From contig NC_058504.1 in assembly GCF_020382885.2 (NCBI RefSeq), positions 15,697,019 to 15,761,018 on the forward strand: a DNA stretch of 64,000 nucleotides, read 5' to 3'. A program made the position numbers and the translations under genes. The notes below the pieces were generated by a model. The model worked only from the letters and a program-made list of their open reading frames with translations. It was not told where the DNA came from and made no database searches. Source of the stretch: Scatophagus argus (Eukaryota; Chordata; Actinopteri; Scatophagidae). The first letter of the stretch is position 1. Each line of letters opens with the position of its first letter. Below are positions 1-58,374 of the stretch, piece by piece.

Positions 1-102
1 AACAAACGAAAAGGCAGTTTAATGTTTCCCCAAAGTAAATGGAGATGGATGATAAACCTGGACGTTTAACTCTAAAGCGCTGTGAGTGTGAGGATGCCGT
101 AC

Positions 103-35537
<35,435 letters not shown>

Positions 35538-36111: not shown

Positions 36112-36315
36112 TTTAATTTTTCTTTATTTAATTTACTTTATTAATCCCAAGCTGGGAAATTACTTCTCTGCATTTAACCCATCACTGATTGAAACACACA
36201 CACATGCAACATGCAACATGCAGTGAAACACACAGCAGCAGTGGGCTGCATCAAGCGCCTGGCAGCATATTGGGGGATAAGTGCCTTGCTCAAGGGCACA
36301 TCAGACGGCTAATGG
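36112..36315 (-). mobile_element. SINE fragment, same family as the prelid1 insertion, head missing
   Basis: The reverse complement shares long words with the SINE at 56716-57085: GATGTGCCCTTGAGCAAGGC, CCCCCAATATGCT, GTGTTTCACTGCATG and a GGGTTAAATGCAGA stretch, and it ends with a GGGATTAATAAAGT-type 3' end. The tRNA-related head with A and B boxes is absent, so this is a 5'-truncated copy. It lies upstream of flt4. Confidence 0.8.
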
Positions 36316-40755: not shown

Positions 40756-43700
40756 TTAGCCAGAGAGAGCGACACAAGGGTAGTGGAGGAGTTTGATCAG
40801 CTGAGGTTTCTGACTGCGGTCGCTAATGCACGGGCTGAAGAAGGGGAACACCTTGTCCCTCGGCCCGTTGTTGAATGAGTACAGCAGACGCATATCACTG
40901 GCGTTGTAGAAGGACACTCTCCTCTCCTCAAAGTCTAAAAATACCCCGATCCTCTGAGGGGAAGACCTGAGCTGCAGCCTCGTCCAGGGCTGTGTGCCAG
41001 CAGAGTACTCATTACCATTGCGCAAACGCAGTGTCCAGTAGCCGGTTTCAGGGCTCAGCTTGATCCGAGCGTGCCTGTTGATGGTCTCAGAGGCCACGCC
41101 CAGGTCCCATTTGGGTTTGGAGCCCACTTCCACCTCCCAGTAGTGTCGGCCTGACTGGAAGCCCTGGGCAGCCAAGATGTTGACACACTGGAGAAAACGT
41201 CTCTGGTGGTTTACATAGGGGAATACAGCGTCGCATTCAACTGCCATGGTTTTGTCTCTGGAGACGTGGATGCTTGGGTGCGCTGTGTCGACGTCGAATG
41301 TTAATGGGGAAGGGCCTTTGGGGTGAAACAATTCATTGAAATAGTGATAATATTTTCTGTATTAAGACTCAACAGTGTGTCACATTTTAAATTGAAAATA
41401 TATCTTATCAGTGGAACAGTGGTACCATTACTGTCGTTCTTTTAGCACTTAAATATCTTTATATAATACTCTATAATTTTTCCATAATTACTCCTCTTGC
41501 TGAGACAGAACCAATTTTCAGCTCAAGCCCTTTTGTGGGTATTCAAGCACACCAGAGGGAAAAATTACCTGGCCTCAAAGACTTGAACATCTTTCTCCAT
41601 GTGATATACTGTAATGGGGCCGTATATTTGCTGCTGAAAGCGTCTATATCAAACTCTGGGGAAATATCCACCCGTACACATGGTCTGTTGAAAATAAAAA
41701 AAAAAAGCAAACACACCCTTAGGGTGATTTATTCCAAGCACAAATGGCACTAAATGGAAATGTAGATATCAAATAAAGAAAAGAACACTTGCCTTATCTG
41801 TGGGAGCTAGAGAGAAGGAAATGAAGGAAGAATGACATAAATCAACTTTTATTTTCAAATCGATGCAAAACAAGTCAAACAAGATGACACTCAGGGTTTA
41901 ATTTCACTTCAGATTTGGTCTATACATACTCATCTTGGTGGCTACTTTGAGCTGAGATCTTACCTCAGTCAATACGACGTTCTCTGTGGCAGCTTTAGCC
42001 TGATGTAGCTCTCTCATATTATCCTCCAGCTCCCTTATAGCCAGCTCGACGGCCTCCAGGTGGCGCTGGACCTTCTCCAGCTCCTCCTCCTGCTCTCTTC
42101 TTAGCTGCTCCAGCAGGCAGGCCTCCTCATTGTGCAGGATCTGAAAGAGAGCTTGGAATTCCCCTTTGACACGAGCCTGCAGATCTGCTCCGACTTTCTG
42201 TGGCAGGAAAAAACGACTGATGTTACAGGTGGAGGACATAATGCAGCACGTTGCTTTCTGTGTTTTATCACATTTTTCATTGACCAGGAAAGTGGAGGAG
42301 TGGAGCGTTGACTCAAGTATCTTGTTCCACTGAAGCTCCACATATCTCCTGCTGGAAGACACATCTCCAAAGAAGCAGGGAAGGATTTTCTGTTGATCAT
42401 CTCAGCACAGCACGCACAACTAACCTCACGCTCTTATCTTTCATCTGTCACACACACATTAAGTGCCTGTTTGTTTCTGTTGGTTTTGCCTGTGCAGTTT
42501 GCCACATGGTAACGAAAAAATTGCAAAATTGTAATGCACAATCATTTTCATCTAAGTGTAAGACTGTACAGGATTAAGGATGTCCTATGCAAAGCTGATA
42601 CACAATTAAGTCAGAGCTTAGAAAGGCATTTATGTCCTCAAGCAGACAACCATTATGTTTTACATATCAAAGCATAAACAGTCACTTACCACATCTGCAA
42701 ACACCACTAAATATGCACCGTGATATACAGCACACAGCCATTAGGGAGGGACATGTGCATTCTTATCTGTTAAGTGCTGCTATCCCTTCAGCTCCCCACA
42801 GGAGTGTACCTTTATGGTGTCCATCTTGTCTTTGTCTCTGCGAATACTGTTGATGAAATCCTCCTTCCTCAGGCGGTGGCTCTCCAGAGTCTCTTTCAGT
42901 TGTTTCTATACAGCAGTATGCAAATCAAATCAGTGTGGACACAAACAACTACAAAAAGAGAGACCTTGCAGAGAATGAAGGAACTCTTAAACAACTGTCA
43001 ATGGGCCTATTAATGAGCGAGCAGAAAAACAGTGATGCAATAAATATGTCTAGCTCAAAAGATTCTGTTTTTGATAACACTGTCAACTCCATGTTATGTT
43101 CTGCTACTGCTGATTCATTTGTACAGGGTGCACATCCAACCAAGTGAGCTAGAGTTACACCTCAAGAAATAGCTTAACTTTTTAGTAAGTACACTTTGCC
43201 GTTTTGTTGAAGTCTTGTCATGACCACAAAGTTGCCAAGTGCCTCGCAGAAAGTGAGTGCGCCCAGCCAAGTAACAATCCTACACATAAAGCCCCTTAAA
43301 ACTGCCATTCGTTGATTTTACACTTCAGCTTTTGTACAGAATAAACAAGCAAGTTATCAAGTGGTACACAGTAATTTTTTTTTTTTTACCTTTCAACAGA
43401 GCCAGACCCATTTCACCTATTTCCACTTTTAATGCTTAGCTAAGACAACCAGCTCCTTAGCCTTATATCCACTAGATAGAGATATCAATCTGCTCAACTT
43501 TGAATAAACCCATTCTTTTAGAAACAACCATTACATTAAACAAACACATTTCTAACACAGCATATATAGGACTGCAATAGATAGGATTTATTAAAGGAAT
43601 TTAGGCTAGTACTGTTTTCTTGTTTTTGTTTTTTTTTTTAATTCTGGCAGTCATTTGTCAGTTGGCTCTCCCACTGCAGTTAAGTCACATTCACTGTCAT

Positions 43701-44206
43701 ACAAAGTAATATAAAAAGGAGTGGAGAGTGAACTTTGCCCTGAGCAATTCAAGTGAGTTGTGTTCAGGGTGGAACTACAGTGAAATTAACACAGATGTGG
43801 ACTGAAACATAGAACAGAATTGTATTCAACCACACACTTCATAATACTTTCCAGGTGACCAAGAGTAAAGGCATGGAAGGCAGCCAAGCACGATCATGAA
43901 GTGCAGGCATTAACTCACCTCGATGTTCTTGATGTAAGTGTCCGAGGTGGTGGCCCTGACCTTCTCCACCATGGCTGTCACAAGGTAGTTAGTCTGAAAC
44001 TGTTTGGAGGTGAACTCCTTGCGACACTGTGGGCAGCTTACAGGGCCCTGAGTTCCCCTCCAGTACCGGGAGATGCAGGGTTTGCAGAAGTGGTGCATGC
44101 AGGCCAACATGACCGGCTCCCGGAACAGATCGCAGCATATGGCACAGGTCAGGTCCTCCCTCAGGCTGCCTTTGGAAGATGTGGCAACAGCAGCAGCAGC
44201 AGCCAT
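40756..44206 (-). CDS. TRIM-type E3 ubiquitin ligase: RING, coiled coil, PRY-SPRY, no B-box seen
   Basis: Predicted E3 ubiquitin-protein ligase. Coding exons: 43919-44206 (288 nt), 42810-42905 (96), 41964-42197 (234), a tiny exon near 41793-41806 not firmly resolved, 41569-41684 (116), 40756-41315 (560 with stop). The 96/234/tiny/116/SPRY pattern is the classic exon layout of SPRY-type TRIM genes. Exon 1 encodes a C3HC4 RING ([19 protein letters not shown]; about residues 20-65). The next two exons are charged, heptad-like coiled coil. The last exon is PRY-SPRY, with WEVEVG, WDLGVA and [12 protein letters not shown]. Phase demands that the tiny exon be 2 mod 3 in length, giving about 433-438 residues. 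In most such TRIMs exon 1 also encodes a B-box; here it stops right after the RING. The start ATG at 44206 sits shortly after a splice acceptor (ctacatccag at about 44245), so the 5' UTR is split. TRIM7/TRIM41-type genes near human FLT4 are possible relatives; orthology is not settled, so no symbol is given. Confidence 0.88.
41793..41806 (-). other. Candidate micro-exon of the TRIM-type gene with a GC donor
   Basis: On the minus strand a pyrimidine-rich tract (ttccttctctctag) precedes CTCCCACAGATAAG, followed by gcaagt, the best-known form of a non-canonical GC-AG donor. A length of 14 nt (or 5 nt, using the second AG) restores the phase between the 234-nt and 116-nt exons. Related genes usually have a 23-nt exon here; no GT-bounded 23-nt exon was found. 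Confidence 0.4.
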
Positions 44207-44787
44207 GGTGAATATGTCCACGCTGAGGAACTGAAAGCAGAAGCCTGGATGTAGAGACACACAGAGAGAGATTAAACACTCCCTTTCGAAAGACAGTTAA
44301 CAGGGCGAAGGATCTCAACTGAGCCAGCTGAAATGAAATAAATTTCACATTACATAGCAACAAATGACTCTTGTATGTCACATTTTACTAGTTATTCATT
44401 AACTAAATCCGAATCTAGCAAAGAGGGTTGTGCACCTCAAACATTAAGTCCTAAACTAATGACAAATCAGTGTAAAAAAAAAAACTGTCCACTTGCACCA
44501 ATTAATATACTAAGGACCTGCTTTAAATGTTACCAGTTCAAGTGTAAATGCTAATCGGGGCGAGGAGAAATCAGCTGATACATCACGGGACTCTAAAGGC
44601 TTACTTATGATTTTATGGTCAAAGGGACGTTTGGTCAGTTGTTTTGTTTGGTGTCTGCCCAGCCATGAAGCCCGCTAGCGGTTAGCGACGTGCAGCAACC
44701 AGGAAATGGACAGTTTAAGCAACACAGAGCAAAACAAAGAAACCATGACAAAGTGACTATAAACATATTTTAGTTACAATTTTGGTG

Positions 44788-47768: not shown

Positions 47769-50387
47769 GTGAGTCCATTAATATGTGCATAGCGTTAATT
47801 TAGACCTTAAATGACCATTGCGAGGTTGTTTTAGTGACCAAAACTGTATCCCTGAGGTGAAGGATATTAAATTATCTGTTTTTTTTGTGACTGCGTAAGT
47901 TGTAGTTGGTGAAACTATTATATGTGCGTAATTTAGATATGAGAGGAACATTTGAAAAGGAGGATGAACAAGTGTCTAAATTACGTGGCGCAAGAGACTA
48001 TCTTTGTGTTGGAGGGAAGCGTTTTGCACCTGTCTAGCAGGTCGAATAAGCTTTGAGAGCTCCCATGGAGATTTTTGAATGCGCACTATTCATTGAGTTA
48101 GAGAAATGGCGACAAATTACGCACGAGCGTAGTATCAATGCATATCTGATTCAGAATTAGGTATCTAATCATGATTTGACGGCAGTGCGTGGAGTTAAGT
48201 ATCGTGCATTTTTGTTCCAGCAGGTGTAGTTTTCAGATTCTTCAGCGACACAAGCTCGCCTTAAGTCCAGGATTACCATCGCTGATCAGAAAAGGGTGCT
48301 TTGACAAATTGCTGATGTTTTTTGAAGTGCACATGTCGCTTGGAGTCTGCCTTATAATTCCCTAATGCGTGTGGCTGTCTGCTCTGAGGGAACAGGCAGG
48401 CTGTACATGGATTTTGATTTATGGGCAGTGCCACACTTCAGCTGTCATGACCACAATTTCAGTGGTCCCTACGGATTCAGAGTGATCCTGCCATTTATTT
48501 CATGACTCACGGTATATCTAGATATGTGTGTGTGTGTGTGTGTGCGTTTGTGCGTCATTGATTACTTCTCCTAATAGATCACACTTGATATGTTATATTA
48601 TTCACTTAAATCTTCAGCAACACACACACACACATTAAGACCTTTTTCAGCTTGAGGTCAGTCATAGGGAGAACAATATGATTCATGTAGAACACTGGAA
48701 CAAAATAACATTAACTCCATGTCCTCCAAAATACATTTTTAGTAGTGAATAAAAAAGAAAAAGCAAAGACCTCAGTGAACTATGTGCAAAGGTCTGTCAA
48801 AAAATAGACTATGGTATCCCCAGAGCAACCAAAGTGTGTCTGTCACCAAAGCGATGACCTCTCACTAAATGGTCGGTGGTCTCCTGTTTGTCAAAAAAAT
48901 TCCATAACGAAAACTTTAGGAACTGAGTGTTAGCGCCCATCTTTTCCTGTGAGCACACAAAATCTCACAGATTTAAATGAAATCCTTTAAAATCAGATTA
49001 TTGTGGATTTGTTGAAGGCTTCTGACTGAGTCTATTGTCACTTAATGAAATTAGCATTAATCCTCTGAGTGAGGATACAGAGATTTTGCAGTGACTTTGG
49101 AGTCTAACATTAACAGTGTTTTCTATATGTGCTTTGACAAAACTTTCTCTCTCCACAGCAGGAGCTCTCGTGCTCTCAGGACATTAACATAAACGACAAG
49201 ATAATGAACTACAGAAAGTGTACTGAAAAGAGTGGATTTCTGGTGGAGGCCATCTTTCAGACCGAACTCAGACACAGCACACAATATTCCCTTTATGAGA
49301 TGCAGACTGTGTATGAGAGTCGTCTACGGCTCTAATGATGAAGCTTTGAACTGGTTGACTCCTCCTGATCGCATTGCTTCCTCCGTCATTTTCCTTTAGC
49401 CTTTGAAATGGCACAGGTGTTCGTGTCTCTTAGAAAAACTGCTTGCTGTAACCAAAAAAAACTCCTCGTACGCAGGCCAGCGGCAAAGACATTTTCCCTG
49501 GCCGTAGCAATAAGGTCTGTTTTGATCTTCCATTGATTACCATCTGTTACAGAAATGCGCTTTTCATTTTCTCAGCTTTTCAGAACACCCACTTCCTCAA
49601 TGCAATCGTGAGTGGTTGTTCTAATAATTAGGCTGCATTCATTAGAGCATTATCTTCTAAATTGCACTGTTTCATTGCCCCGAGTTAAATATATAATGGC
49701 TTTAATAACAGTATGACATTTAGAATGTGAACTATCCTTCCCGCTCGATATGAAGAGAATAATGAAATAGCTGTATATCAGTTCTATTTAGTCAGATTCA
49801 TTAGAAGCTGGATTAGCCAAAGCTCCTGCACTTTATTCTATGCTGAGAAGGAAGAAGATCCTGAGAATAAATGACAAGTTTTAAGTCTAATGTGACTTTG
49901 TCTGTCTAAGCGTGTTGTGGAGGAAACGTCCATGTTCAGTTTCTTTGGATGACAGGAGATATATATCGTTTAATTGCAGAAACAGAGGGAGAGAGCATGC
50001 CAAAAGATAACCAGGAGGTAAAAATACAAGCCCACCACCAAAGAGCCCCACTGATCAATTCCCAGCACCAGTCTTTGGCGGTGGTAAGCTGGTGAGAGAT
50101 GGTGTTCTTGTCACTGTATCAGAAACTCATACTGGTTGTTTGGAACACCTAAACAACTTAGGAGGAGGAGGTATGTGGTACATCGCAAGTGACTGGTGAT
50201 ACCTTACGAATGCAGCAGTGGAGTTGGTGTGGAGTGACAGGAAATGCAGATGATGGAATTCTAAGTTGGAGAGAAAAATATGAAATTCAACACCTCAAGC
50301 TCGAGTATTTTTCAAACAGTTGGTTTTTCATAACTTGTATACTATCCTGCTCCCACTTGATTTTTTAAAAATGTTTTCTTTCCTCAG
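47769..50387 (+). other. Presumed 5' UTR intron region of the NPY receptor gene
   Basis: Non-coding by eye. It contains a (GT)n run (48525-48546) and an acceptor-like site at about 49159. It ends with the strong acceptor tttctttcctcag at 50387. Confidence 0.4.
48525..48546. repeat. (TG)n microsatellite
   Basis: TG run in the presumed first intron of the NPY receptor gene. Confidence 0.85.
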
Positions 50388-50424
50388 GTGTCAGCACAGC
50401 CTCCATCTGGCATCTTCCAATAAA

Positions 50425-51540
50425 ATGAGCCCACCATACACATCCAACAGCACAAGCGAAGGAGAGGCTGGTGAAATCAATCCCTGGATTCTACTTAATG
50501 AAAGCATGGGTTTATACCCACCCAGCTTCCACACTGACATCACCAAGCACCTTGGAGTCCAGATCACCCTGATCACAGCTTATTCCCTAATAATTCTGCT
50601 GGGGCTGGTGGGGAATGCTCTTGTCATCTACATGATTATTCGCTACAGAAACATGCGAACAGTGACCAACTTCTTCATAGCTAACCTGGCTCTGGCAGAC
50701 CTCCTGGTGGACACTCTCTGCTTGCCTTTCACTCTGGTTTACACTCTGTTAGATGAGTGGAAGTTTGGAGCTGTGTTGTGCCACATGGTGCCCTTTGCCC
50801 AGGCCCTGAGTGTCCAGGTATCCATCCTGACCCTGACTGTCATTGCTCTGGAGCGTTACCGCTGCATCGTCTTCCACCTTGGTCAGCGCCTCACGTGGCA
50901 CTCCAGTTTCCTCATCATGGCAGTCACCTGGACTGTGTCTGCTGTCCTGGCAGCACCTCTGGCCATCTTCAAAGAATACCGCTACGAAGAGATCCCTTCT
51001 ATCAACCTGCGTATTGCTGTCTGCTCTGAGAGCTGGCCCCATGGAACCAGCAGGGATGGAGTCATCTACAGCCTCTCAATGCTGCTCCTACAGTACATTA
51101 TTCCTTTAGCCATCATCAGTTATGCTTACATCTGCATATGGATCAAACTGAAGAATCATGTCAGCCCGTCCAGCCGTAACGACAGCATCAACCGTCGCAA
51201 AAAAACCACCAAGATGTTGGCGCTGGTGGTGTTGGTGTTTGCTATCTGCTGGCTGCCGTTCCATGTGATTCAGTTAGCCAGTGATCTGGACCTGGCACTG
51301 AGGCTTAAGGAGTACAAACTCATATACACAGTGTTCCATATCGTAGCCATGTGTTCGACTTTTACCAACCCTCTCCTATATGGGTGGATGAATAAAAACT
51401 ACAGGAATGGCTTCCTCATGGTCTTTCGTTGTGAGGACAAGCCAGATTCTTTTCACCCTGAGGGCTCATTCAGAACACGCTCCATAAGAGGGAGGACTCT
51501 GAATGGCCGCAATGGAGGACACCCTCCAACTGCTGTATGA
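50425..51540 (+). CDS. npy7r: Neuropeptide Y receptor of the Y2/Y7 group, probably Y7
   Basis: Seven-helix class A receptor for NPY/PYY peptides, Gi/o-coupled, at the plasma membrane (family knowledge). The coding region is one exon of 371 codons, as usual for this family. Visible features: N-glycosylation sequons at N8 and N25; TM1 with GNALVI (63-68); TM2 NFFIANLALADLL (82-94); disulfide cysteines C119 and C200; the TM3 DRY-type motif as ERY (143-145); TM6 FAICWLPFH; TM7 CSTFTNPLLYGW with NPxxY (315-319); and a palmitoylation-type cysteine C336. The frame is open upstream to an ATG at 50320, but a strong acceptor (tttctttcctcag, ending 50387) interrupts it, so the ATG at 50425 is preferred. 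CSTFTNPLLYGWMN and the C-tail place it with Y2/Y7. Y7 is favoured because the neighbours are 5q35-type genes whereas NPY2R lies on human 4q; npy2r/npy2rl remain alternatives. Confidence 0.9.
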   Translation: MSPPYTSNSTSEGEAGEINPWILLNESMGLYPPSFHTDITKHLGVQITLITAYSLIILLGLVGNALVIYMIIRYRNMRTVTNFFIANLALADLLVDTLCLPFTLVYTLLDEWKFGAVLCHMVPFAQALSVQVSILTLTVIALERYRCIVFHLGQRLTWHSSFLIMAVTWTVSAVLAAPLAIFKEYRYEEIPSINLRIAVCSESWPHGTSRDGVIYSLSMLLLQYIIPLAIISYAYICIWIKLKNHVSPSSRNDSINRRKKTTKMLALVVLVFAICWLPFHVIQLASDLDLALRLKEYKLIYTVFHIVAMCSTFTNPLLYGWMNKNYRNGFLMVFRCEDKPDSFHPEGSFRTRSIRGRTLNGRNGGHPPTAV

Positions 51541-51883: not shown

Positions 51884-52752
51884 TTAACTGCAATCACAGC
51901 ACTGAGTCTGTGATTGCAGTAAAGATGTGCAAGCCTGATTGAGGCTTGCACATCTGGACACTGCAATTTTATTGCATTCTTCTTTGCAAAAGTGCTCAAG
52001 GTCTGCCGTGTTGCACAGGGATCGGGCGTCAACAGCTCTTTTCAAGTCCAGCCACAAATTCTCAGTTGGATTGAGATCTGGGCTTTGACTCAGCCACCCC
52101 AGAACATTCACCTTGTTGTCTTTAAACCATTTCTGTGTAGCTCTCACTGTGTGTTTCAGGTCATTGTCTTGTTGAAAAATGAATCCTCTGTTAGGTCGAA
52201 GTTCTCCTGCAGACTGAATCAGATTGTCCTCCAGGATTTCCGTATATTTGATTGCATTCATTTCACCATCTACCTTTACAAGCTTTCCAGGGCCTGCTGA
52301 TAAGAAGCATCCCCACGGCATGATACCACCACCACCATGCTTCTCGGTGGGGATGGTGTGTTTTTGGGCAATGTGCAGTATTTGATGTCGGCCAAACATA
52401 GCATGTAGTCTGATGGCCAAAAAGCTCCATTTTGGTCTCATCAGACCAAAGAACCTTCTTCCAGTTGACATTGGAGTCTCCCACATGTCTTTAGGTGAAA
52501 TCTAGTTGAGATTTAATGTGAACTTGAACAGTGGCTTTCTCCCATAAAGCTTTGACTGGTGAAGAACCTGGGCAACATTTGCAGTATGCAGAGTCCCTCC
52601 CATCTCAGCTGCTGAAGACTTAAGAGTACTACTTCAGGGTAATCATAGGTGTCTTGGTGGCCTCTCTCACTTGTGTCCTTCTTGCACAGCCACTCACTGT
52701 GTGAGGATGGTCTGCTCTGGGCAGATTTATACTTGTGCCGTATCCTTTCCAT
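51884..52752 (-). pseudogene. Tc1-like transposase, frameshifted
   Basis: DDE transposase of the Tc1 group (cut-and-paste, inserts at TA). The longest frame (51884-52486) has GGGGIMPWGC, the second catalytic Asp in FQQDND and the DD34E glutamate in SPDLNPTENLW. The first catalytic Asp (LWSDETKME) is read in a different frame (52263-52484), so there is a frameshift between them at about 52390-52440. The N-terminal DNA-binding part (about 52500-52750) is also scattered over frames. Non-functional as it stands. Confidence 0.9.
51890..51955. repeat. Two adjacent perfect inverted repeats in the Tc1 element
   Basis: GCAATCACA (51890-51898) pairs with TGTGATTGC (51909-51917). AGATGTGCAAGCCT (51923-51936) pairs with AGGCTTGCACATCT (51942-51955) around a 5-nt loop. 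Both overlap the 3' end of the transposase frame. Confidence 0.9.
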
Positions 52753-55895: not shown

Positions 55896-58374
55896 ATGGT
55901 GAAATATTTCTGCTGTTTCGGTGTGCTCAAAAGCACTTGGGACCAAGTTTGTGTTGCATTCTGGCAACGATATCCCAACCCATACAGGTGAGGGCGATGG
56001 GCGCACTGATAGTTTGGATACAGTTTCTTCTCTGATCCTTGCATAAACTGTTTAATCCAGATTGCACTGCATAAATACAGTAGTTGAAATTAAATCTCAT
56101 CATTCTTCTATACTGAGAAGGTTAAACAGTGGTAGAAAGTAAAGAAGTATATTATGCAAGCAGTGTATAGCTCTGAGGTACTCCATTGGTATCAGCTAAT
56201 GTGTAATCTTACTTTTCATAGTTTAAGAAATTTCAGTTTGTCTTCCAGCACTGAGGTTGAGAACACTGTTTCTCCAGGCAGCAGTGATGTGCGTATCATA
56301 GTTCGACAGGGGCAGTTTCGGTTTATTACTCTTTTTGAAAGCACAGATACAGAAATACACTTGTCCCAGATTCTCAACTGATAATATTTGAAATTTCATA
56401 TCTTTAGTTTTTGGCCTTTGTCAGATAAGAAAGAAATAAGAAGAGTACTACCATTTTTCACTATTTTCTATCACTATTTAGACCGAACAGTTAATTGACT
56501 AATGAAGAGGACAGTATCATATCTGCATTGGTTGCTGTTTTACATCAATGGAAATTCGAAACAAACCATTGATAGTTGTCTCTTTGAGTTTCTGGAATGT
56601 GTTTTTATTATTGTTTCGATTATTATTGTTTCTTTTCCTCCTTTCTCACAGTAACCACGTTTTGACCGAGGACATAATTTTCCGAGAGGTTACTCCAACC
56701 AATTGCCTCATTTCATTGGGGGCAGCCGTGGCCTAGAGGTTGGAGAAGCGGCTTGTGATCGGAGGGTCACCGGTTCGATTCCCCCACTGGACGGGCAGGA
56801 AAAATTTGGGTGTGGTGGAGTGATTAATGCGAAAAATACTCCCCCCCTCTATTAGCCGGCTGATGTGCCCTTGAGCAAGGCACTTAACCCCCCAATATGC
56901 TCCCCGGGCGCCTGATGCTGCCCACTGCTCCTGTGTGTGTTTCACTGCATGTAATTTGCCGGGTGTTGCATGTGTGTGTTCAACTAAGGATGGGTCAAAT
57001 GCAGAAGACGAATTCAGTGTGTGTATGTAAAAATATATATACTGCCAATAAAGTTGATTCTTCTTCTTCTTCTTCTTCTTCTTCAAGACGTCTGTTGACC
57101 AAAACTAGCCGTGCACCTCGCTGGATGGAGCGGTACCTTCCGAAGCACATGGCCAGCTCGGCATATATCATTGAGGACTCTATTGTGGATCCTCAGAAAA
57201 GGACCATGACCACACTAACATGGAACATCAGCCATGCTCGCCTCATGGTACCACGGTGTTTGATTCCACGGGCAGTATGTCATTTCTCTAAGTAAAAAAC
57301 ACAACTTCATGATGCTTTTGTTTGTTTTTTTCCTCTCGGTTCCAGTCCGTGGAAGAGCGGTGCGAGTATCGAATTAACCCTGAGAATGGCAGCTGGACAG
57401 AGATTAAAAGAGAGGCTTGGATCTCATCCAGCATCTATGGGCTCACTAGAGCTATTCAGGTCAGTAGAGCGTAGAGTAAAGTGAAGCATCACAGTACGTA
57501 ACAGCCCAGGGAAAGTGGTGTGTGTGTGTGTGTGTTGTCTGAAAGGGAGACTCGCCCACCTGTCTGTCATTCTGTAATTGGTAACATAATACACAGGGGG
57601 AAGATGCCAAGTGACAGCTGAGAAGTTTAAGCTGTCTGCCAAGATTTGGGTCACTGAATGATTTATGTTCAAGTCTGAGTGGTCTTTTATTGTTATCAGG
57701 CTCTGAGAGAATATGTGGTGATGTGACTTGCAGGTTATTGATGCATTGTTTTCTGTCTTTAGTGTTTTTTGCTGTGTTAGTTAACTATTTTTCTTCACTT
57801 ACCAGGAATTTGGTCTTGCAAGGTTCAAGACCAGTGTTATGAAGACCATGAAGGGCTTTGAGTATGTGCTGGCTAAAATGCAAGGTAAAGTGTGGATATT
57901 GATAACATCAGTTAATTTGGATTGCAGAACAAAGACATTGCTAATCCTATTAGTAACACTTGTCCTTTTCCTGCTGAGACAAGTCAAAATTTCTGATGAA
58001 AAAGAGAAATAAGAAAGCACAAGTTCTAAGATGTAAAGTACAAGGTGGACAATAAAGGAAAAACTTTGTGATGTTGACTGAGCAAACACATCAATCAATT
58101 CAAAAACACAAAGAGGCCTGTCTGACTTTTGAGTCTACTTCAGTTTAGGAGAGCTTCTTGGCTTTTGTGTGTAAAGCTTGATCATTAAACAGACAACATA
58201 AATATTGAAATATTTCAACCAATATTATAACCGATATGTTGACTTTTTGTAGGTGAAACTCCATCAAGAACCTTAGCAGAAACCGCTACAGAGCGGGCAC
58301 GAGAGACAGCACTGGCAGCTAAGGAGAAAGCCAAAGACCTTGCATCACACGCCCAGAAGAAACAATATGTCTGA
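55896..58374 (+). CDS. prelid1: PRELI domain protein 1 (mitochondrial phosphatidic-acid transfer), exon 2 interrupted by a SINE
   Basis: PRELID1 with TRIAP1 moves phosphatidic acid across the mitochondrial intermembrane space for cardiolipin synthesis (family knowledge). Coding exons: 55896-55987, 56652-56715 plus 57086-57247 (one exon split by an insertion), 57346-57459, 57806-57884, 58253-58374. Ignoring the inserted 370 nt, the parts form 210 residues, near the 219 of the human protein. Recognisable stretches: WDQVCVAFWQRYPNPY, HVLTED, RRLLTKT, EDSIVDPQ, MTTLTWNISHARLM, REAWISSS, EFGLARFK, MKGFEYVLAK. The C-terminus has Ala/Lys-rich LEA-type repeats (ETALAAKEKAKDLAS). All other splice sites are consensus. 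In the genome the frame after codon 52 runs into SINE sequence and meets TAG at 56732-56734. Whether this copy is functional, an allele or a new pseudogene is open; teleosts often keep prelid1a and prelid1b, and which one this is cannot be told. Confidence 0.85.
56716..57085 (+). mobile_element. tRNA-derived SINE inside prelid1 coding exon 2
   Basis: The head GGGGGCAGCCGTGGCCTAGA has an A-box-like word (TGGCCTAGAGG) and is followed by a B box (GGTTCGATTCC), both RNA polymerase III promoter elements of tRNA-derived SINEs. The body has GATGTGCCCTTGAGCAAGGC and the end is CAATAAAGTTGATTC plus about ten TTC units. TTCA occurs on both sides (56712-56715 and 57082-57085), a possible short target duplication. 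The intact (TTC)n tail and boxes suggest a recent insertion. Confidence 0.88.
57055..57084. repeat. (TTC)n tail of the SINE
   Basis: About ten TTC units directly before AAGACGTCTG of prelid1 exon 2; on the mRNA strand it makes a pyrimidine tract ending in AAG. Confidence 0.95.
57518..57535. repeat. (TG)n microsatellite
   Basis: Short TG run in prelid1, in the intron after the exon ending at 57459. Confidence 0.8.

Follow-up and report, generated by a model that had tools for sequence, protein, structure and literature searches.

SINEs that insert into exons and alter splicing have been described in several systems, the closest of which are two dog genes. A 218-bp SINE has brought stop codons into RAB3GAP1 exon 7 in Alaskan Huskies; affected dogs are homozygous for this allele, and the great majority of their transcripts are spliced to a new acceptor within the SINE, which preserves the reading frame (PMC4751546). 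The authors of that study reported that PTPLA uses the same SINE acceptor, and stated that their own data alone do not prove causality (PMC4751546). The SINE in exon 2 of dog PTPLA has been associated with multiple splicing defects, a 99% decrease of the normal transcript and disease (PMC3465307). SINE-born introns have been described as well, one in the coding sequence of rice catalase A and others, derived from Alu elements, in four human genes, where all of them lie in 3' UTRs; this 2007 paper presented the four human cases as the first vertebrate introns reported to have arisen by SINE insertion (PMC2394776).

We analyzed a window of 64,000 nucleotides of the Scatophagus argus genome (contig NC_058504.1), the whole stretch of DNA to which all coordinates refer, in which a SINE lies inside a coding exon of prelid1a. 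As far as the published descriptions go, the locus resembles dog RAB3GAP1 in that a SINE with stop codons in a coding exon is predicted to make an acceptor that would turn the exon sequence in front of it into intron without a shift of the frame. By sequence, prelid1a shows two features of the RAB3GAP1 and PTPLA kind, a SINE in a coding exon and a strong acceptor created by it (from 2.56 to 13.74 bits). However, the SINE itself contains the acceptor in dog RAB3GAP1, where 39 residues give way to 46 new ones, whereas the prelid1a acceptor uses an AG of the host gene; here the SINE contributes only a branch-point-like word and a pyrimidine tract, and no SINE residue enters the predicted protein. 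Use of the dog acceptor was shown by RNA, while that of the prelid1a acceptor is a prediction from the DNA sequence. Dog PTPLA shares the exonic SINE with prelid1a, the multiple splicing defects and the 99% fall of the normal transcript being observations on PTPLA. Rice catalase A and the human Alu introns are alike in that an exonic SINE creates new intron boundaries, but a whole coding intron was gained in rice and the human introns are in 3' UTRs, whereas in prelid1a the change would lengthen, on the 3' side, an intron that is already there. An exonic SINE with an acceptor is thus of a known kind, and what is new here is a SINE 3' end that is predicted to supply an acceptor to prelid1a. The insertion was unreported in the titles and abstract openings searched, a scope outside which most subscription papers lie.

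The prelid1a gene is located on the + strand and has five coding exons with GT/AG boundaries. Exon 1 (55896..55987) extends from the ATG to the donor CAG/GTGAGG and ends in phase 2; the donor scores 11.3 bits with the approximate consensus-frequency matrices that were used for all splice sites. Exon 2 (56652..57247) consists of 226 nt of exon and 370 nt of insert, and the gene model continues with exon 3 (57346..57459), exon 4 (57806..57884) and exon 5 (58253..58374), which reaches the stop codon. Since introns are present, this copy is not a retrocopy. As the earlier note had claimed, the frame resumes at 57086, and joining 56715 to 57086 yields an uninterrupted PRELI protein of 210 aa. This insert-free protein matches human PRELID1 (6i3v) with 280 bits over residues 1-172, compared with 73 bits for PRELID3B, and Pfam PRELI (PF04707) with 167.7 bits (cut-off 27) at profile positions 1-156 of 157. 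Judged by these scores, it belongs with PRELID1 in the Ups1/PRELI lipid-transfer family and is nearer to PRELID1 than to PRELID3. Among the matches listed, the best named relatives are the prelid1a proteins of Cololabis saira, Acanthopagrus latus and Sander vitreus, each with 93% identity over the whole length, which suggests a percomorph-like teleost. PRELID1/TRIAP1 serves the synthesis of cardiolipin by delivering phosphatidic acid to the inner membrane of mitochondria (PMC7949116). The donor of intron 2, ATG/GTACCA at 57248-57253, scores only 1.4 bits with these matrices. After the motif HARLM, a stickleback protein (P0031) reads VPKRW... and a sunfish protein (P0052) VPH, which looks like a similar GTNCC donor combined with some intron retention or misprediction.

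The insert, a 370-bp SINE in sense orientation within exon 2 (56716..57085, + strand), has ends that are ambiguous by 4 bases because TTCA is found at both flanks (56712-56715 and 57082-57085). These 4 bases (TTCA) are the only candidate for a target-site duplication and are in part common to the TTC tail. The element ends in a short simple repeat, a perfect (TTC)9 tail at 57058-57084 with 100% matches, in agreement with the earlier description of the tail as uneroded. Compared with the A and B box consensus of pol III promoters, it contains an exact B-box word at 56772 and an A-box word at 56729 that is recognized by a loose pattern only; a strict A-box pattern had no match in the SINE. Likewise, neither ARAGORN nor Rfam found a tRNA in it, and SINE heads are often too diverged for a tRNA relationship to be recognizable. 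The term tRNA-derived used in the earlier note is therefore a probable description, based on the two promoter words. Stop codons are present in all three sense frames of the block, and a sense AATAAA at 57047..57052 could cause premature polyadenylation. The window contains a partial relative of the 3' half of the SINE at 36167..36313 (- strand, 83% identity), and a 20-base SINE core word occurs twice in the window but in none of 100 shuffles. Another element whose 3' end is related lies at 27868-27930 (- strand) and reads GGAATGGGTTAAAATGC...AATAAAG...CTTCTTC. The exact 28-base SINE core was absent from collections of viral and prokaryote contigs, which contain no fish, so that this absence was expected. 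SINE_FR1D and SINE_FR2 are SINE names given in PMC3151243.

The reading frame proceeds as ...REVTPTNCLIS up to 56715, continues into the insert as LGAAVA and then meets a TAG inside the SINE at 56734..56736 (+ strand), so the product is 58 aa long. This is the break of the coding exon by a SINE that the earlier note had described, although the stop was placed there at 56732-56734, 2 positions too low. The reading frame of the assembled haplotype is thus not intact and, on its sequence, this haplotype is unable to make the normal PRELID1 protein. If exon 2 is kept whole, the stop after 58 aa is followed by three exon junctions downstream, which makes the prelid1a mRNA with the retained SINE a candidate for nonsense-mediated decay.

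The first AG after the insert, at 57087, is predicted to be a strong 3' splice site (57054..57087, + strand), composed of TTGAT (with the A at 57057), (TTC)9 and CAAG. The branch-point-like word TTGAT lies 30 nt upstream of the AG; this word and the 27-nt TTC tract come from the SINE, and the AAG comes from the host gene. With the approximate matrix the site scores 13.74 bits, compared with 14.92 bits for the native acceptor at 56651; without the insert, this AG would score 2.56 bits. Among the 4238 + strand AGs of the window this corresponds to a percentile of 99.8 with the SINE and of 82 at the empty site. By sequence, the 3' end of the SINE turns a background AG into a near-native acceptor.

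We then scored donor-acceptor pairs from the exon 1 donor or any GT or GC of exon 2 to any AG of exon 2. An open frame was obtained in 44 of the 799 alternative pairs. The best of all 799 was the pair that joins exon 1 to the acceptor at 57087, which scores 25.0 bits and leaves the frame open; the next open pair scores 11.9 bits, and the native pair sums to 26.2 bits. Splicing of exon 1 to 57088 would give a shortened exon 2 of 160 nt (57088..57247, + strand) and an in-frame protein of 188 aa. The possible splicing outcomes are thereby narrowed to one favoured candidate, which the earlier note did not contain. With the weak intron 2 donor behind it, the 596-nt exon may lose out to the 160-nt version beginning at 57088, and use of the 57087 acceptor is expected in part of the transcripts. 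However, the native acceptor, which is upstream, scores slightly higher, and the 57087 acceptor ends in AAG; together with the sense AATAAA, these features make it plausible that truncated transcripts are formed too. Other routes were tried and rejected. With the 57087 acceptor and introns of at least 60 nt, no GT or GC donor in exon 2 or the SINE keeps the frame open, and skipping of exon 2 shifts the frame. The frame match at 57087 was also dropped as an argument for significance, since placing the SINE in simulation at 513 positions of exons 2-5 gave an equally strong in-frame acceptor at 82 of them (16%).

The predicted 188-aa product reads ...NPY/RRLLTKT... and would lack SNHVLTEDIIFREVTPTNCLIS. 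These 22 missing residues are conserved: in 137 of the 158 PRELI proteins fetched from the matches listed, a 22-residue segment separates the NPY-type motif from the RRLLT-type motif. A single protein shows a clean deletion of the segment, and the other 20 are of neither sort, being truncated, with a retained intron, variant in the motifs or shorter by one residue in the segment. In the model of a full-length control, the lost segment covers the predicted strand 38-44 and reaches into the first part of strand 50-59. A seven-stranded sheet has been described, as has lysine 58 of human PRELID1 as a specificity residue (PMC6408443); the position of this lysine is outside the lost segment. The mean AlphaFold pLDDT was 61.9 for the full-length control (P0003) and 69.7 for the deleted form (P0077), the control being the less confident of the two.

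The one clean deletion is isoform X2 of prelid1a of the opah Lampris incognitus (P0077, in a cluster of 10 member sequences), which is annotated with the identical NPY/RRLLT junction and 188 aa. In a search with the junction region it ranked first among the matches listed, with 90 bits compared with 77 bits for the next row, and a clean junction of this type was not found in the other 157 fetched proteins. At most, the opah isoform suggests that the host AG can act as an acceptor without a SINE. Four fish proteins of 145 aa (P0121-P0124, three from lgn contigs and one from Channa argus) start at the internal motif MERYLPK; they are truncated models or transcripts without the start of exon 2.

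To assess the state of the gene, the insert-free protein was compared with 27 intact orthologues from the 28 top rows (P0001-P0028; P0009, with 209 aa, was dropped). It has 2 residues that are seen in no other row, compared with 0-9 in each of the 27 orthologues, and its residues 31-52 agree with the consensus at 21 of 22 positions. The earlier statement that the other coding exons are intact is borne out: their boundaries are GT/AG, they are in frame, and no second lesion was found in the prelid1a coding exons. With 2 private residues and no second lesion, either the insertion is young or selection is still acting on prelid1a. The young age proposed earlier agrees with the lack of further decay, as continued constraint would.

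These results are best explained by a recent retroposition of the SINE in sense orientation into exon 2 of a genuine, intron-bearing prelid1a gene. Through the TTGAT word and the 27-nt pyrimidine tail, the AG just behind the insert would become a strong 3' splice site. Part of the transcripts would then be spliced straight from exon 1 to 57088, with the SINE and the 64 nt of exon 2 that precede it treated as intron. The resulting in-frame protein of 188 aa, without 22 conserved residues and one predicted strand of the PRELI sheet, is expected to be weak or inactive. We therefore favour, with modest confidence, a loss-of-function or hypomorphic allele that is partly spliced to the SINE acceptor and that, as we infer from the conservation of prelid1a, is most likely segregating, for example with the sequenced fish being heterozygous.

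One alternative is that the mRNA loses precisely this block, because the block is an older intron or because a reaction that excises transposons, such as SOS splicing, acts on it. Exact removal would restore the protein, and the earlier note had named an ancestral intron at the insertion point and clean removal of 56716-57085 as findings that would speak against its interpretation. On limited evidence, the intron was not found: besides the retention of the segment in 137 of 158 proteins, one sequence (P0127) has exon 1, intron 1 and exon 2 as a single frame that is unbroken at the insertion point; this contig seems unspliced and is, we infer, cypriniform-like. The five equivalent excisions begin with TT, TC, CA, AT and TT, and none has GT...AG or GC...AG ends, so exact removal of the SINE by GT-AG or GC-AG splicing is impossible. 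SOS splicing needs terminal inverted repeats, and none were found in the insert, where the longest pair of non-overlapping arms measures 8 nt and does not link one end with the other. SOS splicing has been cited as excising DNA transposons (review PMC13247085). Altogether, we regard exact removal as very improbable. An artefact of assembly or sampling, in which the SINE was joined wrongly or represents a rare somatic or haplotype event, is in keeping with the single assembly available, but the block has the structure of a true insertion, with TTCA at both flanks, an intact tail and a frame that is restored exactly, and such an artefact appears improbable.

Two further readings assume that the insertion is fixed. 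Loss of prelid1a in the species, with another copy such as prelid1b as a substitute, would agree with the broken reading frame and with the proteins named prelid1b in carp among the matches listed. However, the coding exons carry no second lesion and conservation is ordinary, so that the loss would have to be very recent; we consider a fixed dead gene unlikely. Alternatively, the species might live on a 188-aa PRELID1 made from the SINE acceptor, with intron 1 extended by the SINE tail so that it ends 436 nt further downstream, within exon 2, and with one PRELI strand lost. The near-native acceptor with its matching phase and open frame, the same deletion in the annotated opah isoform, the position of lysine 58 of human PRELID1 outside the lost segment (PMC6408443) and the lack of decay in the rest of prelid1a all speak for such a rescue. 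Against it, the 22 lost residues are conserved in most of the fetched PRELI proteins and include the predicted strand 38-44, the gene's own copy of the segment shows no evident drift, the frame match is ordinary among simulated insertions, and the dog parallels are associated with disease. We hold functional rescue, and with it the boundary shift, to be rather unlikely.

If the favoured reading of a defective, segregating allele is correct, the broken prelid1a of the assembly is a segregating defect; otherwise it may be a natural test of a PRELI domain that loses a strand. The case suggests that the 3' end of this SINE, TTGAT followed by the TTC tail, needs only a following AG to become an acceptor. 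Should the insertion be fixed and spliced as predicted, a SINE would very recently have altered an intron boundary within the coding sequence of a vertebrate. Under functional rescue, a SINE-made boundary in a conserved vertebrate gene would be seen soon after its birth, at a place where the opah has the same annotated junction.

Several other features were observed in the window. A single-exon rhodopsin-type receptor is encoded at 50284-51537 (+ strand), its nearest solved structure being the neuropeptide Y receptor type 2 (432.6 bits). On the - strand, 51887-52501 contains a transposase-like fragment (DDE_3, 27.5 bits, just under the Pfam cut-off of 28.6), which we take to be a Tc1-type relic. 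The same strand carries exons of a receptor tyrosine kinase with Ig domains at 22-15216 and a TRIM-like gene with RING and PRY-SPRY domains at 40759-44296.
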